Made by a program: the position numbers and the translations under genes | Shown: positions 203 to 6,246 of the stretch, one piece after another | Layout of the letters: each line of letters begins with the position of its first letter | Numbering within the stretch: the stretch's first letter is position 1 | Origin: a virus | Virus record (IMG/VR): IMGVR_UViG_3300010354_000526 | Coordinates: 1 to 26,598 of that record | DNA: 26,598 nucleotides | Direction: 5' to 3' (one strand) | The notes under the pieces: model-generated | Databases searched by the model: none | What the model saw: only the letters and a program-made list of their open reading frames with translations | Told to the model about the DNA's origin: nothing

Positions 203-727
203 ATGAAGAAAAATTTTAAAGTAGATAAGACAGTTTTAAGTTATATCTATGCTAAAAATTTTTGGCAAGAGGGTGATGCTGACAAATTTAAAACAGTTAT
301 ATCAAATTTGAAATTTGTACCAAAGCAATACGGTCATGAGATAGATGATTTTAATATGACCGATCCTGAACTTGATATGGTGTTTAGTGAAATGCTGGGT
401 GATTGGATTGAGATGAAAGAAAAACAATCGGGAATTTTCAGAATTCCGTATCCAGGAATTCATTTTGAAGATTTCAATAGTTTAAATGAGTGGAGATTTA
501 TTGTTGCGCTAGAAGATAATCAATTTACTATTTTTAATCACAAATCTGGCGTACAAGATGCTAGACAGGGACACAACTTTGATTATAAAAATACTTTAGA
601 ATGGACTATAGATTCTATAGTAAGTATCAAGAAAAATGATTGTTTATTTTATAGACCATGGGTTTTTCATAGTCTAGAACCAAGACCATTATATTACTAT
701 AAACTAATGGTCATCGAGGAAGATTGA
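203..727 (+). CDS. Hypothetical phage protein, possibly a jelly-roll (cupin / 2OG-oxygenase-like) fold
   Basis: A 174-residue protein with no signal peptide or membrane segment. A purine-rich GAGAAGTGAG lies just before the ATG. The second half alternates short beta-like strands with conserved-looking aromatic and charged residues: PGIHFEDF near residue 86, EWRFIVALED near 96, IFNHKSG near 110, and FYRPWVFHSLEP near 150. This resembles the double-stranded beta-helix of 2-oxoglutarate/Fe(II) oxygenases and cupins, which marine T4-like phages often carry. However, I do not see a clear HxD...H...R triad, so the enzyme assignment is inference only. Its stop overlaps the end of the opposing hldD-like gene by 17 nt, a tail-to-tail arrangement. 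Confidence 0.6.
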   Translation: MKKNFKVDKTVLSYIYAKNFWQEGDADKFKTVISNLKFVPKQYGHEIDDFNMTDPELDMVFSEMLGDWIEMKEKQSGIFRIPYPGIHFEDFNSLNEWRFIVALEDNQFTIFNHKSGVQDARQGHNFDYKNTLEWTIDSIVSIKKNDCLFYRPWVFHSLEPRPLYYYKLMVIEED

Positions 728-1496
728 TATAATCTTCTACTGTTATAAATTTCTTATCATAATGTTTACGAGCGCAAGTATAGAACTGATACTTGCGCTT
801 TAGTTTTTCTGGAAACTCAATTTCTTCTACTGTACTGTTATATTTGTCTGCAATAAGATCTGCAACATATTTAAATGAAACTGGATTGGATGTTCCTATA
901 TCATAGATGCCAGAAGGTTTGTTGATTAGCATACAATCAATCACATCTTCCACCCATACAAAGTCTCTAATACAATTTTCTGAATCTTTAAACACTTTGA
1001 TAGATTTGTTTTCTAACGCTTGTTTAGTAAACTGATGAACAGGGGAAGCTTGTTTACCTTTATGATCCTCACCTTCTCCATAAACATTAAAAAATCTTAC
1101 ACCAACAATGTTGTTAAAATCTTTATAATTAGATTCAACCCATATGTCAATATTAGCTTTTGATATTGAATAATGATTTAGTGGGTTATAAGCGTACGTA
1201 TAGCTATTACCATATACAGAAGCTGAAGAAGCGTATACGATAGGAATATTGTATATTTTAGCACGATTAAATAGCTCCATTGTATAGTTAACATTGTATT
1301 CATGAAGCAGATCAAAATCTGTACATGTCGTATCACTTATACCACCTATGTGATATATTTTTTCTACCTTGGCCCAATCAGTTAGAAACAAAGAAGAAAA
1401 GCAATCTTCATATCCAACTAAAATCAGATCTTCTGGTTTAAATCTCTTTACAAGATTGCTACCAATAAACCCTTTATATCCTGTTATCAATATCAT
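711..1496 (-). CDS. hldD: ADP-L-glycero-D-manno-heptose 6-epimerase (HldD-like)
   Basis: Short-chain dehydrogenase/epimerase of about 261 residues that should convert ADP-D-glycero-D-manno-heptose to the L-glycero form used in LPS inner core. Visible: the N-terminal Rossmann motif GYKGFIGSN (Gly6, Gly9, Gly12), YASSASVYG near residue 88, the catalytic Tyr109-x-x-x-Lys113 (YSISK), GVRFFNVYGEGEDHKG, NCIRDFVWVEDV, GIYDIGTSNPVSF, and a C-terminal FPEKLKRKYQFYT, which is diagnostic of HldD rather than other epimerases. It is shorter than the roughly 310-residue bacterial enzyme, mainly between the first strands of the Rossmann fold. An ATG at 1496 is preferred; a TTG sits at 1499. It is the last gene of the leftward operon and overlaps the HAD gene upstream by 23 nt. 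Confidence 0.85.
   Translation of the reverse strand: MILITGYKGFIGSNLVKRFKPEDLILVGYEDCFSSLFLTDWAKVEKIYHIGGISDTTCTDFDLLHEYNVNYTMELFNRAKIYNIPIVYASSASVYGNSYTYAYNPLNHYSISKANIDIWVESNYKDFNNIVGVRFFNVYGEGEDHKGKQASPVHQFTKQALENKSIKVFKDSENCIRDFVWVEDVIDCMLINKPSGIYDIGTSNPVSFKYVADLIADKYNSTVEEIEFPEKLKRKYQFYTCARKHYDKKFITVEDYINLPR
719..737. terminator. Small hairpin at the convergent gene junction
   Basis: GAAGATT (719-725) and AATCTTC (731-737) form a 7-bp perfect stem with a 5-nt loop, exactly where the rightward gene ending at 727 meets the leftward gene ending at 711. There is no following T-run on either strand, so if it terminates transcription it is probably weak. The position is what suggests a role; the stem alone could be chance. 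Confidence 0.3.
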
Positions 1497-1785
1497 CAAA
1501 AAAACTTTCAGCGTTTAGTGCTTTATCGTCTATCCACACATCATATGATGGTTTATTAAAAAGCAATTGTGTATACTTTACATTCCATTCAGATAGTTGT
1601 CGTTTAGTAAGTTCAGACCAATCTTTACCTGAATTGCCACCTCTTGCAGTCCAATATACAATTGAATGACCTTTATCATACATCTCATTGAGAAATTTTA
1701 TTCTATTTACAAACGGTACTGCTTGTTCATACTTACTATCAGTTAACGAACAAATTGTACCATCTATATCAACGAGATATTTCAT
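1474..1785 (-). CDS. Small HAD-superfamily phosphatase, possible GmhB substitute
   Basis: A 103-residue HAD-type hydrolase. The motifs are in order: nucleophile motif DIDGT with Asp6 and Asp8, motif II Thr46 in WTARGG, motif III Lys78 in NKPSYD, and motif IV Asp86-Asp87 in WIDDKA. The start at 1785 is chosen because AGGAGA lies 10-15 nt upstream and the protein then begins MKYLVDIDG. An in-frame ATG at 1848 would add 21 residues with no homology and no ribosome site. Small HAD enzymes of this type (GNSGKDW and QLSEW patterns) are common in capsule/LPS loci. Lying between hldE and hldD, it could provide the heptose-1,7-bisphosphate phosphatase step normally done by GmhB. That role is inferred from context only. 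Confidence 0.8.
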   Translation of the reverse strand: MKYLVDIDGTICSLTDSKYEQAVPFVNRIKFLNEMYDKGHSIVYWTARGGNSGKDWSELTKRQLSEWNVKYTQLLFNKPSYDVWIDDKALNAESFFDDIDNRI

Positions 1786-2137
1786 TCTGACTATCTCCTG
1801 GTAAAACTCTATAACTGTCATGACTATCATCTGAGGTAGATACTTCAAATATAATAGAATTATCTTCTAATGCTTCCAATTGATGTGGGAATCCTCTCTC
1901 ATTTACCCATCTATCACCTGTATAAAGATGAATGTATGATAGTGATGCATCTTCTGGATTAATTAAATAAAGTTTAAATGAACCTTGATTTACATACCAT
2001 GTCTCATGTTTGTTTAAATGATAATGCATCGAACCCTTGCCACCTGTCTTATCAAAAACTAACAGTTTACCGCAATACATGTCATTATCTGCAAATACGA
2101 TTTCTTTTCCCCAGCCTTTTTTTATAATATTAACCAT
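1769..2137 (-). CDS. Cupin-domain protein of the sugar-nucleotide cassette
   Basis: A 122-residue single-domain cupin. The metal-binding pattern is visible as His38 and His40 in SMHYH, Glu45 in NKHETWYV, and His85 in GFPHQLEAL, followed by the IIFEVST strand. Residues 8-13 (GWGKEIVFA) match the opening of phosphomannose-isomerase-like and capsular cupins. It may be a sugar isomerase/epimerase or a binding protein; the substrate cannot be read from the sequence. GAGGA in the leader precedes the ATG by 7 nt. The start overlaps the end of hldE by 8 nt and the stop overlaps the HAD start by 17 nt, so translation is probably coupled across the operon. Standard ADP-heptose synthesis has no cupin step, so its task here is open. 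Confidence 0.8.
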   Translation of the reverse strand: MVNIIKKGWGKEIVFADNDMYCGKLLVFDKTGGKGSMHYHLNKHETWYVNQGSFKLYLINPEDASLSYIHLYTGDRWVNERGFPHQLEALEDNSIIFEVSTSDDSHDSYRVLPGDSQNEISR

Positions 2138-3287
2138 TTAATTTCCTCAACACTCTTGATGTAGAATAACCCTCTACATAAGGTATAATAACCACGTCAG
2201 TGATATCATTGCCCACTACTGTATCTACCGTATAATCACCACCTTTAGTAATGATATCAGGTTGTATTTGTTTTATTAATTCGTATGGTGTATCTTCATC
2301 AAATATTATTACCTCATCAACACAGTCTAATGATTCTAAAACAGCTTTTCTATCTTGCTGGTTATTGATTGGTCTATCATCTCCCTTCAACTTCTTTACA
2401 GAAGTATCCGAATTTAAACCAACAATAAGTTTATCACCTAGTTGTTTTGACTGTTTAAGATATTCAACATGTCCTTTATGTAAAATATCAAAGCAACCAT
2501 TTGTAAAGATAGTATATGCTTTCTTTATATCCTCAGGCTGTAAAACATATGTACCAAATTTAGTAACTGATATACTTGCAAGCTTCACAGCTTTCCTTAC
2601 AGCTTGCTCAACATCGATACCTCTACTTAAGAAATGTGTGAGCACAGCAATAAAGATATCACCAGCACCGGTAACATCTGATACTTGGTGTTGATCTGCT
2701 TCTATGTTTATTATTCTACCTGGTGATATAATTTGTGCACCTTTTGAACCTAAGGTAACAACCAAAGAACCAATTTTATTCTTATAAAGAATATCATCAT
2801 AATTACTATAACCTAAACAATATTGTTTTAGCTCTTTTTCGTTTAGTTTAACAATATCTGCATTCCTATAGTTTTCGATAGATTTCTTAGGATCTACTAT
2901 CACTACACAATCTTTAGATTTACAGTAGTCAATTACATCTTGACTTTTATGTAAAAATCCTTTATTATAATCAGATAGAATAACATACTTAACATCACTT
3001 AAATTATAATCAGGTTTAAAATTGTTAGCAACATACTGCTCATCGTCCATTCTAAACAATATGTGATTGTTTGTTACATATCGATATTTTATAGAATTAT
3101 ATGAACCATATGTGACAACATCTGAACCTAATGATTGAAGATTGGATACAACATTACCAGCTCCACCAGATCTTGTCTGTTGGTCTAGTTTGTTAAAAAT
3201 AGGAATAGGAGATTCTGGCGAGATTCTGCTTACCTCACCAAAAACATAAATATCGGTAATGAAATCACCAATTACACAAATTTTCAT
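2130..3287 (-). CDS. hldE: Bifunctional heptose-7-phosphate kinase / heptose-1-phosphate adenylyltransferase (HldE-like)
   Basis: A 385-residue two-domain enzyme. Residues 1-255 are a ribokinase/PfkB-type sugar kinase with SGGAGN (40-45) and the anion-hole/base motif DVTGAGD (204-210, catalytic Asp210). Residues 258-385 are a nucleotidyltransferase with TNGCFDILHKGH (HxGH at 270-273), GLNSDTSVKKLKG, RPINNQ and the C-terminal GYSTSRVL. The domain order and motifs match HldE/RfaE, which phosphorylates D-glycero-D-manno-heptose 7-phosphate and later transfers AMP to the 1-phosphate. It is compact compared with about 477 residues in E. coli, mostly through loss in the kinase lid region. First gene of the leftward operon; the leader is only about 14 nt from the predicted start of transcription, with TGAGG as ribosome site. 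Confidence 0.9.
   Translation of the reverse strand: MKICVIGDFITDIYVFGEVSRISPESPIPIFNKLDQQTRSGGAGNVVSNLQSLGSDVVTYGSYNSIKYRYVTNNHILFRMDDEQYVANNFKPDYNLSDVKYVILSDYNKGFLHKSQDVIDYCKSKDCVVIVDPKKSIENYRNADIVKLNEKELKQYCLGYSNYDDILYKNKIGSLVVTLGSKGAQIISPGRIINIEADQHQVSDVTGAGDIFIAVLTHFLSRGIDVEQAVRKAVKLASISVTKFGTYVLQPEDIKKAYTIFTNGCFDILHKGHVEYLKQSKQLGDKLIVGLNSDTSVKKLKGDDRPINNQQDRKAVLESLDCVDEVIIFDEDTPYELIKQIQPDIITKGGDYTVDTVVGNDITDVVIIPYVEGYSTSRVLRKLNG
3245..3252 (+). promoter_or_regulatory. Possible late promoter inside the 5' end of hldE (antisense to it)
   Basis: CATAAATA followed by TC, the same sequence as the late promoter core found before gp13 and gp20. It lies on the plus strand about 100 nt upstream of the ATG at 3352, inside hldE codons for Asp-Ile-Tyr-Val. 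No other late-promoter-like box precedes 3352. It may be chance, since the codons alone explain it. Confidence 0.3.
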
Positions 3288-3296
3288 AACAACCTC

Positions 3297-3316
3297 ACTA
3301 TATAATATTATATAGT
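3297..3316. repeat. 20-nt perfect palindrome between divergent units
   Basis: Positions 3297-3316 read identically on both strands (half-site ACTATATAAT). It holds a TATAAT on each strand, the leftward one being the -10 of the hldE promoter. It could be an operator for a dimeric regulator, a cruciform, or simply a symmetric AT-rich promoter. It lies in the only divergent intergenic gap of the window. Confidence 0.6.
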
Positions 3317-3335
3317 ATTGTTTAAAATATTACAA
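3308..3335 (-). promoter_or_regulatory. Sigma70-type promoter for the leftward hldE operon
   Basis: On the minus strand, TTGTAA (3335-3330) is followed after 16 nt by a perfect TATAAT (3313-3308), with transcription expected to begin near 3301 and hldE starting at 3287. The -35 matches 4 of 6 consensus bases. A host-type promoter suggests early expression, unlike the late units to the right. Confidence 0.55.
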
Positions 3336-3748: not shown

Positions 3749-4768
3749 ATGGCCACCAAAATTTACGTTTCCCAGATTGATACTGCTAATACTACCGGAG
3801 GTCAAGCTCCGGTAGGTGCTTTGATACTTGTTGGATCTAGCGGTCCATATTGGTCAAATGCATCTATTTCAGAACTTCTTGGTATCAATCTTAATGAGAT
3901 TGTAGGATACACAGGTTCCGTAGGATATCAGGGATCTGAAGGTGTTGGGGGGTATACTGGATCTGTTGGATTCCAGGGATCTGTAGGTGGTGATGGTCCA
4001 CAAGGTGCTGTTGGCTATCAAGGTTCAGTTGGTGCAGGTGGTCCAGGTTATGATGGATCGGTTGGATATCAAGGATCTGAAGGTTATCAAGGTTCAGAAG
4101 GTGCTGTTGGATATTCTGGATCGATAGGTGATCAAGGTCCAGTTGGTCCAGCTGGTTATCTTGGTTCTGTTGGATATCAAGGTTCAGTTGGCTTTCAAGG
4201 ATCGTCTGGTGGTCCCGGAACAACTGCATTTGTTGAGTTGACAGACGTACCACAAAGCTATTCTGGTAAGGCAGGAAACTTTGTAAGAGTTAATGCTACT
4301 GCTAACGGTTTGTTCTTTGACTCAAACACCTATACTACTAATACTATTGGTACAGACGTTAACTTTAGTAGCAATACTATATTAAATCCTACTCTTAAAA
4401 ATTATAGTGAAACAGTAAAAGCAACAGGCAATTCTACATCTACTGTATCAGTAGATATTAGAGATGGCAACATCAATACTATAACTTTAAACTCAGCTAT
4501 TGTACAAATAATAATGAGTACTGCAGGGTTGGTTAATGGTCGCCTTTATAGCATAACACTTATGCTTAAGCAAGATGCTTCAGGATCAAGAACTGTAGAT
4601 TGGTCCAATCAAACCATTTACTGGCCTGCAGGTGAAGGTATTTACTCGCCTAATGGTCCTACGCTTTCAACTCAAGCAAATTACACTGACTTTATAACAC
4701 TAATGACAACCAATGCTGGAGCATCTTGGTATGGAGTAATATCTGCTAAAGGCTTCCCAACTTCATAA
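3749..4768 (+). CDS. Collagen-like tail fibre protein
   Basis: A 339-residue protein in three parts. Residues 1-52 are a globular N-terminus (MATKIYVSQIDTAN, PVGALILVGS) that probably attaches to the virion. Residues 53-157 are Gly-X-Y repeats built from GSV, GYQ, GSE and GFQ units, with a register break near residues 98-102 (GPGYDG). These should form a trimeric collagen-like rod. Residues 160-339 are a beta-rich C-terminal domain starting FVELTDVPQSYSGKAGNFVRV, a motif I know from marine phage fibre proteins, and ending SWYGVISAKGFPTS. Gly-X-Y rods and this C-terminal module are typical of phage fibres. AGGA 6 nt before the ATG. It is co-oriented with the collar, lysin and PAAR genes. Probable role: rod segment of a receptor-binding fibre. 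Confidence 0.75.
   Translation: MATKIYVSQIDTANTTGGQAPVGALILVGSSGPYWSNASISELLGINLNEIVGYTGSVGYQGSEGVGGYTGSVGFQGSVGGDGPQGAVGYQGSVGAGGPGYDGSVGYQGSEGYQGSEGAVGYSGSIGDQGPVGPAGYLGSVGYQGSVGFQGSSGGPGTTAFVELTDVPQSYSGKAGNFVRVNATANGLFFDSNTYTTNTIGTDVNFSSNTILNPTLKNYSETVKATGNSTSTVSVDIRDGNINTITLNSAIVQIIMSTAGLVNGRLYSITLMLKQDASGSRTVDWSNQTIYWPAGEGIYSPNGPTLSTQANYTDFITLMTTNAGASWYGVISAKGFPTS
3905..4220 (+). repeat. Degenerate 9-nt tandem repeats encoding the collagen-like rod
   Basis: Units such as GGATATCAAGGATCT and GGTTCAGTTGG recur with third-position variation across the Gly-X-Y region of the fibre gene. The periodicity is protein-driven. The near-identical DNA units offer substrates for slippage or recombination and could change rod length. 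Confidence 0.7.
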
Positions 4769-4779
4769 TGGAATGAAAA

Positions 4780-6246
4780 ATGCCAATATCAAAAGCAGGT
4801 TTACTAAGAACTGATGGTATAAGTTCTGCACCAAAAGAAGAAGCTTACATACCACTTTATTCTGTTCTTTTTTATTACGGAAAAGAAAATGAGTTTACCG
4901 GTGGTACATTAAACTTTGATAATTATAGAAACTATCAAGAAATATATTATCCAAATATAATAATTTACAATGCTGATGGAACACCTTCATTATTAAAATG
5001 TGATCCTTTAATAACTTGCATTGATGCTGATGCTAATTGGAATTCAAATACTGGTGTTTGCTTTGCTCCAACAACAAATCTTCCTAATACAGGGGCAACA
5101 TTATTTGAGTCTCATACTCATAGTCCAACAACACTAGTAAGAACAAATGTCTATAATATACTTGGAGCTAATCCTGGCGAGACACCAGGAACAATAAGCT
5201 ATATTGAACAAAAAGGTTCGTATACACATAACCACACTTCTAACAATATTGCATTAGGGTTAAGAAACGTACAGTATGGTAGATATGATGGTTTTGCTAA
5301 CAGTGTTGCTGGTATAAATGCAATAGCAGTTAAACCTATATTAAGAGATCCTCAGCTAGTAACAAATCTCAATGAAGTCTACAACGAAAAGAAGCTAACT
5401 TATATTCCCAAGAATGTAATTGTGTTTGGTAATGATTTACCAACCAATTCATATTCAAGAAGTGATAGTTTCCATAGCAATTCTGCAACTGGATTTGTGC
5501 TTCCTCTTATTGCCAAGAATGATGATGTAGGAGCTCTTCATACACCAAATACTTTATCGTTTAGTATAACATCAAGTACAGTTTTAAATCACAATCATAA
5601 CCCATATCCACTATCTCAGAAAAGAAGATCTAAAAAGGTGGGTCAAACTGGTTATATTTTAAACGAGGCTGGTGTTCATAATCATGCAGTAACATATACA
5701 TCGAATGTTGAGATAAGATCTAAGATTCTTAAAGCATGGGTAACCACACAAAATAGTACACCTATTGCTAATGGTGTTATTATTGGATATTCTATAGGAT
5801 TAAATACTCTTTATCAAGGAATTTATTCTAACTCAGAAGTTCTTCCAATTAATTGGCATTTTTGTGATGGTAATAATGGTACACCTGATCTAAGAGGTTA
5901 TTTCATTTACGCCAACTTTGATGCAGCTAATACTTGTCACGATACTGTACTTTACAGCTCAAATACAATGACTATTAATTCTATATCAATGGCTGCTAAT
6001 GGTAACCATTCTCATTTAGGTCCTTTAACAGGAGTACAATCTGGAGCAGGGACGCCAGTTGATGCAGGAAGTCATAGTTTTGAAGATATTTTAAATCACA
6101 CTCATGCAATATCAACTGCAAACACATTTAAATATAATGCAACTGATACTGAGGAAGTTACTAATATAAAAGCAGGGCAATCATACACATATGTTCCTCC
6201 TCGTGTTCAGCTTGCTTTTATAATGTATAATGAAAATATAGTATAA
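4780..6246 (+). CDS. Tail-collar-domain fibre protein with six HxH metal-binding motifs
   Basis: A 488-residue fibre-tip-like protein. A collar-type segment sits at about residues 358-372 (NWHFCDGNNGTPDLRGYF), matching the CDG..GTPDLR signature of phage tail collar domains in T4 gp12/gp37. Six His-x-His pairs are spread along the chain: 112/114, 150/152, 271/273, 300/302, 410/412 and 440/442. In the T4 long tail fibre tip gp37, HxH motifs from three chains octahedrally bind a row of iron ions. The same geometry is inferred here. The C-terminus QSYTYVPPRVQLAFIMY resembles the ends of collar proteins. There is a mid-protein basic loop (SQKRRSKKVG). It starts 12 nt after the collagen-like gene and probably forms or caps the receptor-binding tip. 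Confidence 0.7.
   Translation: MPISKAGLLRTDGISSAPKEEAYIPLYSVLFYYGKENEFTGGTLNFDNYRNYQEIYYPNIIIYNADGTPSLLKCDPLITCIDADANWNSNTGVCFAPTTNLPNTGATLFESHTHSPTTLVRTNVYNILGANPGETPGTISYIEQKGSYTHNHTSNNIALGLRNVQYGRYDGFANSVAGINAIAVKPILRDPQLVTNLNEVYNEKKLTYIPKNVIVFGNDLPTNSYSRSDSFHSNSATGFVLPLIAKNDDVGALHTPNTLSFSITSSTVLNHNHNPYPLSQKRRSKKVGQTGYILNEAGVHNHAVTYTSNVEIRSKILKAWVTTQNSTPIANGVIIGYSIGLNTLYQGIYSNSEVLPINWHFCDGNNGTPDLRGYFIYANFDAANTCHDTVLYSSNTMTINSISMAANGNHSHLGPLTGVQSGAGTPVDAGSHSFEDILNHTHAISTANTFKYNATDTEEVTNIKAGQSYTYVPPRVQLAFIMYNENIV

Follow-up and report, generated by a model that had tools for sequence, protein, structure and literature searches.

A cupin protein as a probable replacement for the isomerase GmhA in the ADP-heptose gene cassette of a T4-like marine phage

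The complete virus record IMGVR_UViG_3300010354_000526 (26,598 bases; here called the window) is a fragment of a T4-like marine phage, and its terminase is closest to those of Methylophilales phage Melnitz (55%) and marine cyanophages. Four genes overlap on its minus strand, encoding an HldE-like protein, a cupin, a small HAD phosphatase, and an HldD-like protein (Table 1); the overlaps are 8 nucleotides (nt) for hldE/cupin, 17 nt for cupin/HAD, and 23 nt for HAD/hldD, and the structural genes run in the opposite direction. The first-pass annotation had described these leftward genes, at positions 711 to 3287, as an ADP-heptose cassette beside receptor-binding fiber genes, with the HAD enzyme in place of GmhB and every step covered except that of GmhA. 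This interpretation stands in part. The reading frames are intact, the HldE and HldD signatures and the adjoining fiber genes are confirmed, and the assignment to ADP-heptose synthesis is well supported, but the supposed gap at GmhA is probably wrong, with the cupin most likely filling that step. The cassette is a real and partly known feature, and its new element is this cupin as a likely GmhA replacement. The first-pass annotation had overlooked the isomerase-type active site of the cupin and a shortening of the kinase half of HldE.

The hldE product (385 amino acids [aa]) matches PfkB (9.9e-25) and CTP_transf_like (2e-22) in Pfam and has PRK11316 (302 bits) as its top NCBIfam match, the kinase and nucleotidyltransferase domains each matching the expected family. 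Its best PDB matches are the cytidylyltransferase 5x9q and the D-beta-D-heptose 7-phosphate kinase 4e84. With the motifs DVTGAGD and GCFDILHKGH both intact, it has the HldE architecture of a PfkB kinase fused to an RfaE nucleotidyltransferase domain. Compared with archaeal kinases, the kinase half is missing about 30 residues from an alpha/beta unit but keeps the KxR...RxDxE segment and GAGD; phage relatives of this kinase are similarly short. The hldD product is closer to ADP-heptose 6-epimerase (TIGR02197, 200 bits) than to other sugar-nucleotide epimerases (GalE, 41 bits), and its best PDB match is 1eq2 (9.2e-37, 130 bits), the first non-HldD structure scoring 50 bits; the YxxxK motif and the segment RxFNVYGxxExHKGxxAS, which includes ExHKG, align with 1eq2. 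Curated cutoffs are missed by HldE (302 versus 521), HldD (200 versus 275), and the nucleotidyltransferase domain (177 versus 181.5), which fits compact, diverged phage versions of these enzymes. The next-best NCBIfam families score far lower, and no other families come near HldE and HldD for these two proteins.

The cupin is a protein of 122 aa with a single cupin domain and a confident AlphaFold model (predicted local distance difference test score of 94.7). Fifteen residues are invariant in 53 homologues from phages, bacteria, and archaea (W9, G10, E12, Y21, K24, S36, H38, H40, K43, E45, G52, H85, E98, S100, and D107). Its best single-domain PDB match is the D-lyxose ketol-isomerase 2y0o, aligned via YCxK, HxH, KxE, H, and ExS; oxalate decarboxylases rank close to it by summing two domains. 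In the Thermofilum lyxose isomerase (TsLI), sugar and metal are bound by K62, H75, H77, K86, E88, H143, E156, and D163, and activity is lost when the positions equivalent to K86, E156, and D163 are altered (PMC8378251). K24, H38, H40, K43, E45, H85, E98, and D107 of the phage cupin correspond to this active site, with the spacing of HxH, KxE, and H-13-E kept and D107 matched to D163 by position only. The phage cupin therefore has the residues of a D-lyxose-isomerase-type enzyme, that is, four metal ligands (H, H, E, and H) and the catalytic K, E, and, by position only, D. It shares the single domain, the ligands, and the catalytic K and E (probably also D) with the cupin D-lyxose isomerases 2y0o, 7nzo, and 3kmh, but it is shorter, only about 20% identical to them, and located in a heptose-phosphate operon. 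The reaction proposed for it would yield a manno-configured aldose phosphate and would chemically resemble the conversion of fructose 6-phosphate to mannose 6-phosphate.

Cysteine dioxygenase, the label of PHROG_7851, was considered for the cupin and rejected; E45 is invariant as a fourth ligand-type residue, and the isomerase-type residues are present. Cysteine dioxygenase has a three-His iron site without a glutamate ligand.

With HldE and the cupin as queries, 96 loci were retrieved from IMG/VR. Of the phage HldE loci, only 11 lack the cupin, and all of these are either truncated at a contig end or chimeric; no other protein accompanies HldE in phages so constantly. A SIS-fold GmhA was sought in vain: the window has no match to TIGR00441 or SIS_2, and TIGR00441 was matched by none of 47 records and SIS_2 by none of 39 (E ≤ 0.1), including eight complete cyanophage genomes, many of the IMG/VR records being fragments. 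Kinase, nucleotidyltransferase, HAD, and cupin genes are all present in cyanophages P-SSM2, S-CAM1, S-CAM3, P-TIM68, S-SM2, Sf-FS3, and S-T4, of which all except S-T4 also have an HldD homologue of the type found in the window. In these cyanophage clusters, the kinase and nucleotidyltransferase are separate genes in another order, whereas the two are fused as HldE in the window. In P-SSM2, S-CAM1, and S-CAM3, the heptose set adjoins tail-fiber genes. Because cyanophages already carry such sets, phage heptose genes as such are not new, and their occurrence in marine phages has been reported (PMC7378029, PMC7029224). In NC_006883.2 and other cyanophage records, the HAD protein is named phosphoheptose isomerase and the cupin is named cysteine dioxygenase; the motifs contradict both names. 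Seven cassette contigs binned in bacterial or archaeal metagenome-assembled genomes (L143, L145, L161, L163, L165, L172, and L174) look like cyanophage fragments, and a Nudix hydrolase gene lies near hldE in 62 phage loci (within L025 to L090).

Outside phages, bacterial and archaeal genomes were scanned for the cupin, which turned up in DPANN operons together with HldD, a heptose kinase, GmhB, and a nucleotidyltransferase. We sampled 148 genomes of one DPANN phylum for the nucleotidyltransferase and tested the strong matches for a GmhA-type SIS protein and for the cupin. Among the 24 genomes with a strong HldE nucleotidyltransferase, none of which had been chosen through the cupin, 16 have the SIS protein only, 5 the cupin only, 1 both, and 2 neither (Fisher's exact test, P = 0.0027, uncorrected for kinship). 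In the genome with both, the heptose operon contains the cupin, and the SIS protein is encoded on a separate contig. The operons themselves show the exchange: GmhA, HldD, kinase, and nucleotidyltransferase/GmhB follow each other in L209 and L213, and the cupin, HldD, kinase, and nucleotidyltransferase/GmhB do so in L197 and L198. The four operon GmhA proteins tested score 217 to 229 bits (L209, 229; L213, 218) against a curated TIGR00441 cutoff of 209. The kinases of L197, L198, L209, and L213 form a single clade (99% support); over the whole kinase tree, five exchanges of one isomerase for the other are needed, and well-supported branches force at least two of them. Furthermore, the kinase has a fused C-terminal partner in three loci: the cupin (L199 and L203) or a SIS domain (L216). 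Some archaeal cupins pass the Pfam cutoffs for D-lyxose isomerase or for the C-terminal domain of mannose-6-phosphate isomerase. In three Woesearchaeota operons, a protein of about 305 aa stands between cupin and kinase at the expected place of HldD (L171, 8323 to 9249; L178, 8339 to 9250; L182, 8324 to 9247).

From its genomic context and residues, the cupin is likely to be an isomerase that replaces GmhA. Its family, shared by DPANN archaea and numerous marine T4-like phages, quite probably represents a second, unrelated solution to sedoheptulose-7-phosphate isomerization, the first committed reaction toward heptose, in which case the phages would hold a complete ADP-heptose pathway that needs only sedoheptulose 7-phosphate from the host. 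We transfer the function to the phage cupin because it shares the catalytic residues and has its own constant link to HldE. No report of a cupin in heptose synthesis was found in the open-access literature, and a sedoheptulose-7-phosphate isomerase of this kind, common to phages and archaea, appears to be new.

The small HAD protein has 103 aa counted from its ATG, a longer TTG frame extending to position 1848. All HAD catalytic residues are present, and D6-x-D8, T46, K78, and D87 are invariant. Its nearest solved relative, also the top fold match, is 9iqw (2.9e-19, 34% identity), AfhF of phage HY126, deposited as D-arabinose 1,5-diphosphate phosphatase. In NCBIfam, it has a weak EcbF-BcbF match and none to GmhB; it is a capless AfhF/EcbF-type enzyme (DxDGT, T, K, and DD) and not a GmhB, an HAD-IIIA protein of about 190 aa matching PRK08942 or TIGR00213. 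Phosphoheptose isomerase, the label of PHROG_1238, was rejected: its members carry HAD motifs and no SIS domain, and PSSM2_311 of P-SSM2 matches HAD families only. Among the related phage loci, a GmhB-like HAD (representative, PRK08942, 137 bits) is found in 43 and the small HAD in 19, with both in none. Phage lineage partly accounts for which of the two phosphatases is present, and their mutual exclusion is therefore suggestive rather than independent proof. Together with the sugar-1,5-bisphosphate phosphatase as nearest solved relative, it supports the first-pass proposal that the small HAD probably replaces GmhB. AfhF and the small HAD are homologous, and both would take a terminal phosphate off a sugar bisphosphate during the synthesis of a nucleotide sugar in a phage; the AfhF pathway differs in its nucleotidyltransferase, in having a SIS isomerase, and in adjoining a thymidylate-synthase-like gene.

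The four genes, supplied with host sedoheptulose 7-phosphate, would thus probably suffice for ADP-heptose, the substrates, product, and use of the product being our reading of the sequences. (i) The cupin, in place of GmhA, would convert sedoheptulose 7-phosphate to D-glycero-D-manno-heptose 7-phosphate. (ii) The HldE kinase would add a phosphate at C1, and the small HAD, in place of GmhB, would remove that at C7. (iii) The HldE nucleotidyltransferase would add AMP, and HldD would invert C6. The product would probably be handed to a glycosyltransferase, of the phage or of the host, that builds a surface glycan or glycosylates a phage fiber. Compared with the bacterial route to ADP-L-glycero-beta-D-manno-heptose (GmhA, HldE, GmhB, and HldD), HldE and HldD are homologous and the same chemical steps are covered, but the phage HldE and HldD are shortened, the SIS-fold GmhA is apparently replaced by the cupin, and GmhB is replaced by the 103-aa capless HAD.

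Several observations weigh against this scheme. In a fold search with the cupin, quercetinase, oxalate decarboxylase, and KdgF score equal to isomerases. The cupin family also occurs outside heptose contexts, namely, next to a GDP-mannose-dehydratase-like gene (Binataceae), next to UvdE (phages), and alone. In a tree of the cupins, those of the archaeal operons form a clade apart from the phage ones and could differ in function, and three genomes (G051, G054, and G159) have both the cupin and stand-alone SIS proteins. The small HAD is absent from some phage cassettes, and the substrate of its relative AfhF is an arabinose bisphosphate, not a heptose. The first two points would suit a cassette that makes ADP-heptose with the GmhA of the host while the cupin performs another step, such as a late epimerization or oxidation of the sugar; proteins of the cupin fold catalyze many reactions, which the fold search cannot tell apart. 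We regard this as unlikely given that the cupin replaces GmhA in archaeal operons and kinase fusions of corresponding layout, conserves the active-site residues of a ketol-isomerase, and accompanies HldE more constantly than any other protein in phages. In another phage group (L095 to L104), a related cupin adjoins a gene for a UvdE-type UV endonuclease and no HldE is present.

The homology of the small HAD to AfhF raises a second alternative, in which the product is an activated pentose or some other sugar used in DNA hypermodification, as in the arabinose pathway of T4-like phages (RB69 and HY126), and the cupin is an arabinose-5-phosphate-type isomerase. In HY126, the AfhF HAD stands with a KpsF/KdsD-type SIS isomerase, a GlmU-like nucleotidyltransferase, and a thymidylate-synthase-like gene, an arrangement with the same enzymatic logic, and T4-like phages apparently use such a pathway for DNA arabinosylation (PMC13390438). 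We rate this alternative as improbable because the HY126 nucleotidyltransferase is unrelated to HldE, because HldD belongs specifically with the heptose epimerases (pentoses lack the C6 at which it would act), and because no gene resembling dCMP hydroxylase or hydroxymethylase and no DNA glycosyltransferase was identified in the window, in which not every open reading frame was searched against families. That the genes are decaying or unused morons without a working pathway, as the subcutoff scores and the shortened kinase might suggest, is very improbable, since the catalytic motifs are invariant across dozens of diverged phage homologues and the reading frames are intact, overlapping, and conserved together.

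The plus-strand neighbors of the cassette are genes for a small phage protein, a collagen-like protein, and a tail-fiber-like protein. Convergent with hldD, and overlapping it by 17 nt, is a reading frame of 174 aa that has no match in Pfam, NCBIfam, or PHROG; its HFED motif and a later H suggest a 2-oxoglutarate (2OG) oxygenase-like fold. Relatives with 31 to 35% identity occur in L014, L017, and L018, and a 2OG oxygenase adjoins the hldD homologue of P-SSM2. Sites like the sigma-70-like promoter candidate ahead of hldE are no more frequent than in shuffled sequence. The late-promoter motif TATAAATA does not occur ahead of hldE and overall is not above chance, and an Rfam search gave no match.

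Table 1. Features of the cassette and its surroundings in the window
Feature	Positions	Strand	Evidence
Reading frame of 174 aa	203-727	+	
hldD-like ADP-glycero-manno-heptose 6-epimerase (short-chain dehydrogenase/reductase)	711-1496 (from ATG)	-	TIGR02197, PDB 1eq2
Small capless HAD phosphatase, proposed heptose-1,7-bisphosphate 7-phosphatase in place of GmhB	1474-1785	-	Motifs, 9iqw, exclusivity with GmhB-like HAD in phages
Cupin, proposed sedoheptulose-7-phosphate ketol isomerase in place of GmhA	1769-2137	-	Invariant residues, 2y0o, swap with GmhA in DPANN, AlphaFold
hldE-like fusion of PfkB heptose-7-phosphate kinase (N-terminal) and heptose-1-phosphate adenylyltransferase	2130-3287	-	Pfam, NCBIfam, PDB, motifs
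Candidate sigma-70-like promoter TTGTAA-17-TATAAT ahead of hldE	3307-3335	-	10/12 match; weak
Collagen-like protein	3749-4768	+	
Tail-fiber-like protein	4780-6246	+	

Fiber glycosylation, a change of the host surface, and DNA modification are possible roles for the product. No heptosyltransferase was identified in the window. Near the cassette of ten relatives (L002, L003, L005, L006, L010, L032, L051, L072, L083, and L174), mostly beside a carbamoyltransferase gene, is a gene for a conserved GT9-like protein (NGGAGRVxCSIPAxE), a candidate phage heptosyltransferase with only weak family matches (PF01075 and heptosyltransferase III). A PDB sequence search with this family (A5) gave no match, and one with a neighboring glycosyltransferase candidate (A6) gave mainly tetratricopeptide repeat matches. 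Sulfotransferase and methyltransferase genes flank the cassette in L014 to L018 and L022, with an adenosine 5'-phosphosulfate (APS)-kinase-like gene as well in L014 to L018; a sulfated or methylated glycan is possible. Both kinds of neighborhood, GT9-like/carbamoyltransferase and sulfotransferase/APS-kinase-like/methyltransferase, suggest glycan decoration. Because the lipopolysaccharide (LPS) of cyanobacteria, the hosts of the best-known related phages, is without heptose according to reviews (PMC4390846, PMC4377996), the classic role in the LPS core is doubtful for cyanophages. The first-pass proposal of LPS core remodeling, for example to block superinfection, is not supported by these sequences.

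If the cupin acts as proposed, a seeming gap in a phage pathway that is widely annotated would be closed, and two misleading database names would be corrected (phosphoheptose isomerase for the HAD protein and cysteine dioxygenase for the cupin). A new enzyme family would be predicted, and the ADP-heptose route could run without GmhA in both archaea and phages. It would also sharpen a puzzle, namely, that a full heptose pathway is carried by phages whose hosts reportedly have no heptose in their LPS.

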